A DNA stretch of 36,782 nt from Erysipelotrichaceae bacterium (GTDB lineage Bacteria; Bacillota_I; Bacilli_A; Erysipelotrichales; Erysipelotrichaceae): NCBI GenBank assembly GCA_029101345.1, contig JAQXQU010000115.1, positions 1-36,782 on the forward strand, read 5' to 3'. The number at the start of each line of letters is the position of its first letter. Positions within the stretch are counted from its first letter, which is position 1. Shown piece by piece: positions 12,835 through 22,715 of this stretch. The position numbers and the translations under genes were made by a program. The notes beneath the pieces are model-generated. The model ran no database searches. It was given only the letters and a program-made list of their open reading frames with translations, and had not been told where the DNA came from.

Positions 12835-13676
12835 TAGACAATAAAACCAAAATACAATAAGACAATAAGGCCAATGGCGATGCGATAATAGCCAAAGATC
12901 CTGAAGTCATGTTTACGGATATAGGACAAAATGAATCTGATGACAAAAATCGAAACAATAAAGGCGCTTATTGAACCTGCCAGCAATAAGGAAAGCTCAG
13001 TAGTACTAAAGGCCAGGCCATATTTGACAATCTTCAATAAGGATGCTCCAAACATGACAGGTATTGCCAGGTAGAAAGTGAATTCAGTAGCTGCTGCTCT
13101 GCTAACACCTAAGATAAGTCCACCAATAATCGTACACCCTGATCTTGAAGAACCGGGAAAAACTGCTGCTATAACCTGAAAGACACCTATCAAAACAGCT
13201 GTCTGATAGCTGATATCCCTGATATCCTTCATTGAAGCATCCTTGCCCATATTGATCTTTTCAATGACAATAAAGGCAATGCCCACAATTATCAACGCCA
13301 ACGCTACGCTGATAGGATTATAGAACAAGGCATCGAAGACATCATCAAAGGCCAAGCCAATAACTGCCGCCGGCAAGCAGGCAATGATGATCTTGGTCCA
13401 TAAGATCATCTTATCTTTCCGGACTATTGCAAGAATGCCTTTTCCAAGTGGTTCATCCGATTGGCCAAAAGGCCAAATGTCCTTAAAGAAGAGGACAACA
13501 ACCGCCATGATAGCTCCTAGCTGAATGACTACTTCATAGACCTTGTAGAATTCTTCACTGACAGCAAAGTCAATCAGGTTATTGAAGATGATCATATGTC
13601 CAGTTGAAGAGATTGGCAGCCACTCCGTAATACCCTCAATAAGACCAAAGAGAATGGATATAAGGTAATTGATCAT
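12834..13676 (-). CDS. uppP: Undecaprenyl-diphosphate phosphatase (UppP/BacA family)
   Basis: Integral membrane phosphatase that recycles undecaprenyl pyrophosphate to the monophosphate lipid carrier needed for peptidoglycan and polymer export. Overproduction is known to give bacitracin resistance. The 280 residues form about eight membrane helices. Motif 1 is EGITEWLPISSTGHM with the conserved Glu residues and motif 2 is FPGSSRSGCT. Both are intact. AGGGGGACC supports the start, 8 bp after the CobW/DUF1980 gene. It sits unusually between putative metal GTPases and a thiol reductase, and its stop overlaps the ccdA-thioredoxin start by one base. Confidence 0.97.
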   Translation of the reverse strand: MINYLISILFGLIEGITEWLPISSTGHMIIFNNLIDFAVSEEFYKVYEVVIQLGAIMAVVVLFFKDIWPFGQSDEPLGKGILAIVRKDKMILWTKIIIACLPAAVIGLAFDDVFDALFYNPISVALALIIVGIAFIVIEKINMGKDASMKDIRDISYQTAVLIGVFQVIAAVFPGSSRSGCTIIGGLILGVSRAAATEFTFYLAIPVMFGASLLKIVKYGLAFSTTELSLLLAGSISAFIVSIFVIRFILSYIRKHDFRIFGYYRIAIGLIVLLYFGFIV

Positions 13677-21686: not shown

Positions 21687-21702
21687 TATTTCAAAGAAAT
21701 GC

Positions 21703-21728
21703 GAAAAGCCTCCAAAGGGAGGCTTTTC
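21703..21728 (-). terminator. Strong palindromic hairpin upstream of glgC
   Basis: An 11-bp perfect stem (GAAAAGCCTCC/GGAGGCTTTTC) with a 4-nt loop. On the minus strand it lies downstream of the structured RNA candidate at 21761-21813 and upstream of the glgC promoter. It could terminate a short transcript there. Orientation is not certain, because the T-run is contained in the stem. Confidence 0.5.
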
Positions 21729-21750
21729 AGTATTATTTGATCTTTATAAA

Positions 21751-21820
21751 GGGGGATATGCGACGCAGTAAGTGTAGGGAATCAGCGTCGGCAGGTTTCC
21801 TTACCTGCACTTATATAGTA
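21751..21820. ncRNA. Candidate structured RNA with pseudoknot and kissing loop
   Basis: Stem A, CGACGC/GCGTCG (21761-21766, 21785-21790), abuts stem B, GCAGGT/ACCTGC (21791-21796, 21803-21808). TAAGT in the loop of A (2169-style positions 21769-21773) can pair with ACTTA just after B (21809-21813) to form a pseudoknot. AGGGAA in loop A (21776-21781) can also pair with TTCCTT of loop B (21797-21802), with one G-U pair. I cannot match it to a family I know; fluoride, preQ1, ZTP and SRP consensus motifs do not fit. The strand is unresolved, though a hairpin downstream favours minus. Confidence 0.4.
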
Positions 21821-21875
21821 CACAAACTCTTTCAAATAAATATGTCTCAAATATGTAAAAATGTGTGAATAGCGA

Positions 21876-21884
21876 TGATACAAT
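21876..21884 (+). promoter_or_regulatory. Extended -10 for predicted leaderless transcript of the phosphoesterase gene
   Basis: TGA-TACAAT, then exactly 6 nt (TAAAAC), then the ATG at 21891. No Shine-Dalgarno sequence is present. Confidence 0.65.
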
Positions 21885-21890
21885 TAAAAC

Positions 21891-22715
21891 ATGAAAAAGA
21901 AGACCCCAATTATCATTCTGGCAATCGTTATCACAATCGCTTTGCTTGTGGTGAATGCCATATTCATCAATCCCCACACAACAAAGGTCAGACAGGAAAC
22001 AATCACTTCAAACAAAATAGGAAAAAGCCTTGATAATACACTAATTGCTTATTTCTCTGATCTTAAATATGCTAAGGAAACCCTTGACATCACCACCAGA
22101 GCCATTGACAATATCAATGCTTTCAAACCAGATCTGATTCTCTTTGGCGGCGATCTTTTAAGAACTGACTACAAGTTGACTGAAGAAGAGACCAATATGC
22201 TCATCGAACTTCTTGCTAGTCTCAAGGCACCACTTGGCAAATATGCCGTCCTTGGCGACGAGGATAACCGGGAAGATGTCAGAAAAATCATTGAAGATAG
22301 CGGCTTTGTCATCCTTGATAACAGATCAGTCAAGATTTACAATGGCAGTTCCTATTTGGAGCTGGTTGGACTTGAAAACATGATCAACGGCCAAAAAGAC
22401 CTCGCCAAAGCCTATGCTGATGTCAATAGCGGTTCCTTTATTCTGACTTTGTCCCACTGCCCTGACAGCATTGAAGAAATCTCCTCATATCCAAGCGACT
22501 ATTTCCTGGCTGGCCATAGCTTAGGTGGAAGTATCTATATCCCTATATTCAATTCCTTCTATCGTTTCAAAGGGGCCGAGAAGCACTTCCATGGTTCAGA
22601 TATCATTAATGGCACCTATTTGGAAATCACCAATGGTGTTGGATTAGGCAAATCAAAAGCCCGCTTGTTTGCGGACTCGGAAATTGTCTTATATAAGCTT
22701 AGTTCTGCTTCATAA
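21891..22715 (+). CDS. Membrane-anchored metallophosphoesterase-like protein with altered metal motifs
   Basis: A 274-residue protein with an N-terminal membrane anchor (residues 6-27) and an extracytoplasmic domain of the calcineurin-like phosphoesterase fold, similar in layout to YkuE-type proteins. The five metal motifs are recognisable but changed. DxH is SDLK (Asp57, Lys59), GD is intact (FGGDLL, Asp88), and GNH[DE] is GDED (122-125). The single His is LSHCP (His189), and GHxH is GHSLGG (His209, Leu211). Loss of several metal ligands suggests weak or no hydrolase activity, or a binding role. It lies downstream of a structured RNA candidate and converges on the aminopeptidase P gene, overlapping its end by 17 bp. 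Confidence 0.75.
   Translation: MKKKTPIIILAIVITIALLVVNAIFINPHTTKVRQETITSNKIGKSLDNTLIAYFSDLKYAKETLDITTRAIDNINAFKPDLILFGGDLLRTDYKLTEEETNMLIELLASLKAPLGKYAVLGDEDNREDVRKIIEDSGFVILDNRSVKIYNGSSYLELVGLENMINGQKDLAKAYADVNSGSFILTLSHCPDSIEEISSYPSDYFLAGHSLGGSIYIPIFNSFYRFKGAEKHFHGSDIINGTYLEITNGVGLGKSKARLFADSEIVLYKLSSAS

Follow-up and report, generated by a model that had tools for sequence, protein, structure and literature searches.

It has been reported that the csRNAs of Streptococcus, which belong to the CiaRH regulon, are short RNAs with two stem-loops and an unpaired anti-Shine-Dalgarno region, occur in several copies, and are controlled by an OmpR-type regulator acting from direct repeats with an 11-bp period (PMC3091779). 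RsaE and RoxS are stand-alone small RNAs (sRNAs) which carry two UCCCC motifs and are activated by a two-component regulator (PMC8334554, PMC8216469), and LhrC of Listeria, a member of the LisRK regulon, has three UCCC sites distributed over two loops and a single-stranded stretch. The UCCC or C-rich motifs of RsaE, RoxS and LhrC bind ribosome-binding sites (PMC8334554, PMC8216469, PMC4132741). For the CssRS system of Bacillus subtilis, the described regulon consists of htrA, htrB and cssRS, the known CssR box is TTTTCACA, and the system responds to secretion and heat stress (PMC6749698). Our literature search found no CssR-controlled sRNA and no sRNA described in Erysipelotrichaceae.

The DNA analysed here, referred to as the window, is the whole 36,782-nt stretch of contig JAQXQU010000115.1 from an Erysipelotrichaceae bacterium (GCA_029101345.1). 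Judging from its sequence and that of its relatives, the element upstream of glgC is almost certainly a stand-alone sRNA gene on the minus strand, conserved across related genomes. The gene is placed at 21696-21809 (minus strand, about 114 nt) by covariance model matches (models R1, R2 and R3) and by its fold, with ends inferred from the -10 element and the terminator. Read leftwards, it consists of a direct-repeat box, the -10 element, hairpin 1, hairpin 2, a tail and the terminator, all on the minus strand. The -10 element TACTAT lies at 21815-21820, and the pattern TAtnAT is kept about 10 nt ahead of hairpin 1 in relatives. Hairpin 1 (21791-21808) reads GCAGGT-AAGGAA-ACCTGC and is directly abutted by hairpin 2 (21761-21790; CGACGC-18 nt-GCGTCG, or CGACGC-UGAUUCCCUACACUUACU-GCGUCG as RNA), whose loop holds UUCCC; the C-rich motif in this loop, UUCCCU (21776-21781), is replaced by CCCCC in most relatives. 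The tail between hairpin 2 and the terminator reads UAUCCCCCUUUA (CAUAUCCCCCUUUAUAA in RNA letters) and contains the C-rich stretch UAUCCCCCUUUAUA (21745-21758; UUUAUCCCCUUAAA in the genus), a putative anti-Shine-Dalgarno seed which is unpaired in the fold of the window RNA. The intrinsic terminator (21702-21729) has a 12-pair stem and a T-rich tail, in a scan where 0.2 terminators were expected by chance.

The earlier note on this DNA had described two perfect, abutting 6-bp stems and a strong minus-strand hairpin at 21703-21728, and all three are present, the last one being the intrinsic terminator. It had also proposed a riboswitch aptamer or a small regulatory RNA; the latter reading holds, but the plus-strand orientation assumed for it does not. 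The minimum-energy fold of the minus strand gives exactly both stems (z -2.5), and with the terminator included z falls to -4.5 and none of 200 shuffles was as stable, whereas the plus strand folds into a different structure with z -1.6. Covariance model R1 scored 28.5 bits on the minus strand of the window versus 2.6 bits on the plus strand. The RNA was thus assigned to the minus strand, since the covariance model matches the window there only and the plus strand folds worse, and a plus-strand RNA was dropped.

The two hairpins go far beyond chance, being maintained by compensatory changes in relatives, and both carry the covariation signal: 6 of 6 pairs changed in this way in each of them, with 98.5% (hairpin 1) and 94% (hairpin 2) of the alignment cells paired across genera. 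Of the 18 modelled pairs, 15 were changed on both sides among 37 distinct sequences drawn almost entirely from the genus, and all 18 among 60 distinct sequences across genera; the alignments were fitted to the model's own structure and these pair counts lean its way, but the slid and shuffled controls were far off. In the cross-genus alignment 90.8% of cells were paired versus 33-44% when the partners were slid by 1-3 columns, and only 0 or 1 of 500 shuffles reached the observed covariation. A third helix, which in the genus presents UCCCCU within an A-U hairpin, is weaker elsewhere, with 80% of cells paired, and barely forms in the window RNA. The tertiary contacts that had prompted the aptamer idea fared less well. 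Letters complementary for the TAAGT/ACTTA pseudoknot exist, but the pairing is not conserved (237 of 300 controls were as good), and its partner at 21809-21813 sits between the -10 element and the likely RNA start. The kissing of the two loops through AGGGAA/TTCCTT is at best marginally conserved, with 12 of 300 controls as good.

A DNA search of 60 related genomes gave matches mainly on the promoter side. The flanking phosphoesterase gene was used to reach further upstream regions, and most of the 30 regions fetched carried the divergent sRNA unit. Model R1, built from ten relatives with the window left out, matched in 29 of the 36 genomes of the window's genus (E up to 1), and model R2, which includes the promoter, matched in 179 of 272 Erysipelotrichaceae genomes, covering 40 of 59 genera; the genome of the window itself has a second copy (G000:C58). 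The covariance model search detected no copy in some genomes of the genus, among them G001 and G002, and family members are often present in two or more copies per genome. Named records matching the tail pattern were mostly Erysipelotrichaceae MAGs from rumen and gut, and a protein search of named genomes with a single phosphoesterase query gave no match. The sRNA forms a new and widely distributed family, of a kind already known, spanning most Erysipelotrichaceae genera.

Tandem sRNA units, each with its own box and terminator, were seen about 150-190 bp apart in L140 (388-447 and 565-630), and further tandem copies in L139, L236, L245, L247, L249 and L233. Identical units stand at contig ends in G029 (C2, C29, C30, C37) and G031 (C84, C91, C141, C150); these are recent duplications of promoter and RNA into different neighbourhoods, which break the assembly. 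A mobile element was considered for the G029 contig-end repeats and rejected, as the repeat is the whole unit with its promoter, recently duplicated, in differing surroundings.

The layout of the sRNA most resembles that of the csRNAs, with which it shares shortness, two stem-loops, several copies, a similar promoter layout with OmpR-type direct repeats, and an unpaired anti-Shine-Dalgarno stretch; a Shine-Dalgarno-complementary sequence between or in the stem-loops, as in csRNAs, is found in the tail (UAUCCCCUUA). However, the CiaR repeat NTTAAG-N5-TTTAAG is not found before the -10 element, where the box is of the TCACATAATTTTACATAATT type, and the C-rich motifs lie in loop 2 and the tail. 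Like RsaE and RoxS, the sRNA stands alone and would be activated by a two-component regulator, and most members have two UCCCC motifs free to pair, in loop 2 and the tail, but those sRNAs are controlled by ResD/SrrA and not by CssR, and they do not share the covarying two-hairpin scaffold. RF01820 (RsaE/RoxS) reached its gathering cut-off in none of 115 Erysipelotrichaceae genomes, while the B. subtilis control was positive, and membership in RsaE was dropped for this reason. LhrC differs in that the hairpins here abut tightly and covary, and in that the window has two C-rich sites. A cmscan of the window and of 36 relative-bearing loci against all 4227 Rfam families found at this place no match to LhrC or to any other family at gathering score, so that the RNA is unassigned, as in the earlier note, and the best sub-threshold matches were mostly terminator look-alikes. 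The sRNA would work like RsaE/RoxS, LhrC and the csRNAs, but the sequence or box tests fail for each of them, and it was placed in a new family of their kind.

The promoter box TTCACACATTTTTACATATTTGAGACATATTT (21838-21869, minus strand) consists of ACATA-type direct repeats with a 10-11 bp period, is conserved in the genus, and is a putative site of a CssR-type response regulator. Its specificity is high: nothing but the sRNA promoter scored above 11 bits across 400 kb of a related genome, and genus-wide the box pattern matched once or twice per genome while the reversed control gave none. In a class-wide search 11 genomes outside the order matched, and 6 of these, from four families, have a response regulator gene of one and the same type within about 1 kb. 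This gene lies just downstream of the match in 5 of the 6 and is followed by a kinase gene where the flank is long enough. The regulator is of the OmpR type; it reached no NCBIfam equivalog cut-off, and its DNA-binding domain best matches CssR of B. subtilis (PDB 7cx5; 98 bits versus 67 for the next), with near identity around DRVVDD.LRRLR.KMP. A regulator with such a domain, again with CssR as the best PDB match, is present in the clade (L349, L374). Orthologues with a mutual identity of 76% stand after glmM in G184 and in the cdaA-cdaR-glmM-RR-HK operon of G028, which belongs to the window's genus; the gene names of this operon are our own assignment, made by sequence recognition and not by a family scan. 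The box has partial letter matches to TTTTCACA and the right position relative to the -35 region, but it is made of repeats rather than a single octamer, and neither of the two Erysipelotrichaceae genomes that yielded the regulator has a box close upstream of the regulator's own gene. The neighbourhood, the domain similarity and the partial box similarity make it likely that the sRNA promoter is under CssR-type control. Upon membrane protein misfolding or envelope damage, the OmpR-type regulator of the CssR class would bind the direct repeats and activate the sRNA.

A different OmpR-type system, such as WalR/YycF or PhoP, might instead control the promoter of an equally real and C-rich sRNA, which would then respond to wall state or phosphate. 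The OmpR class as a whole typically has direct repeats with an 11-bp period, and locus L115 reads TTAACATAATTTAACATAATT, which is near PhoP boxes. Against this, four other families have the box next to a CssR-type regulator, and we consider such control rather unlikely. A phosphate (PhoP) box was dropped, as no box was found near the pstS genes of the genus, three full-length ones included. As a separate observation, the two-component system in L374 (1515-7262, G028:C5) lies inside the cdaA-cdaR-glmM operon (c-di-AMP cyclase, glucosamine mutase), an arrangement which suggests a link from c-di-AMP or wall precursors to envelope stress.

The C-rich motifs are the strongest conserved feature of the RNA: of the 56 distinct members, 51 have CCCC in the tail and 37 have CCC in loop 2, and both motifs are unpaired in the fold of the window RNA (UUCCC, UCCCCC). 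The window has these two sites; a third one, in the terminator loop, is found in some genera (L216, L232-L235, L239). The tail sequence UAUCCCCUUA is complementary to UAAGGGGAUA, which is of the Shine-Dalgarno type. By analogy with the described C-rich sRNAs, there are good grounds to expect that the sRNA acts in trans by covering Shine-Dalgarno sequences. The C-rich loop 2 and tail would pair with G-rich Shine-Dalgarno sequences (UAAGGGG) and thereby prevent a set of mRNAs from being translated or lead to their decay, while hairpin 1 may protect the 5' end and keep loop 2 open. The best tail duplex in the window is predicted for the gene at 13676 (-16.4 kcal/mol), presumably uppP-like, a name based on the N-terminal sequence alone, and glgC (-13.2 kcal/mol) follows among the next-best. 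In one set of a genome-scale target ranking, membrane or secreted proteins made up 22 of the top 40 versus 30% (p 0.0007), but this surplus did not go beyond that of shuffled sRNA segments, which nearly matched it, and membrane or secreted proteins were dropped as a target class. Altogether, a stand-alone trans-acting sRNA which is activated by a CssR-type regulator and blocks Shine-Dalgarno sequences with its C-rich parts is the best explanation, and as a whole a fairly probable one.

It is improbable that the RNA, rather than regulating mRNAs, binds a protein (for example as a CsrA- or CSP-like sponge) or serves as a sponge for other RNAs. The purine-rich loop 1 (AAGGAAG, AGUGAGG) and the repeated simple motifs, judged from the sequences, do resemble protein-binding decoys, but loop 1 varies among relatives and has no constant ANGGA, and it is the C-rich tail that is strongly conserved.

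The genes downstream bear on whether the RNA could be a leader of glgC. Past the terminator, the next gene is convergent with the sRNA in 47 of 88 loci, the downstream genes fall into 49 unrelated clusters, and glgC is next in the window copy only, so the sRNA does not keep the fixed, equally oriented place ahead of a given gene or pathway that a riboswitch would have; the riboswitch aptamer of the earlier note has therefore to be given up for an RNA which brings its own promoter and terminator. That the RNA is a cis-acting leader or riboswitch of the gene downstream is hence most improbable, largely refuted by the convergent genes and further opposed by the strong terminator ahead of glgC, the lack of a conserved aptamer core and the second and tandem copies which occupy other, unrelated contexts with the same box, even though glgC, which follows the sRNA, has the same orientation, 18 related loci have one same-strand downstream gene in common, and the Shine-Dalgarno region of glgC (GAAGGGGUAUAU) can form the above duplex with the tail. 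In L012, a small ORF directly past the sRNA terminator (MTDKKELNKEELNKVSGG...) has a bacteriocin-like double-glycine leader.

On the other side of the box lies a divergent gene (21891-22715, plus strand) encoding a membrane-anchored metallophosphoesterase, with a Pfam Metallophos match at threshold level. It is linked to the sRNA throughout the genus and present in 34 of its 36 genomes, and the same box lies upstream of it in most loci. Its -10 element TACAAT (21879-21884, plus strand) is 6 nt ahead of the ATG, and a -10 hexamer 6-7 nt before the start codon was found in 30 of 30 genus loci versus 11 of 684 other genes. This spacing indicates that the phosphoesterase mRNA is probably leaderless. 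A leaderless mRNA would be insensitive to an RNA which masks Shine-Dalgarno sequences, and the phosphoesterase mRNA, although sharing the box with the sRNA, may thus escape it.

Putting these parts together, a CssR-type secretion-stress system in the cdaA-cdaR-glmM operon could act via a family-wide anti-Shine-Dalgarno sRNA from which the co-controlled leaderless envelope phosphoesterase escapes, a scheme we offer tentatively and with some doubt. If true, the sRNA would be a Gram-positive counterpart of the enterobacterial sigma-E sRNAs and, after CiaRH-csRNA and LisRK-LhrC, a third link between htrA-controlling two-component systems and anti-Shine-Dalgarno sRNAs, which would suggest one stress-response design repeatedly used in Firmicutes. 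Erysipelotrichaceae are common gut and rumen bacteria, and the sRNA reaches 40 genera of this family; its scaffold covaries, its promoter box is unusually specific and its regulator can be identified, and with model R3 and the box hundreds of genomes can be annotated. A different C-rich RNA (GTGTCTTCTAAGG..., then CTTTTTCATAARCAAACTATAACTCTCC) is driven by a box of this kind in another family of the class (L294-L296, L304-L307), at some loci just ahead of the CssR-type regulator gene.
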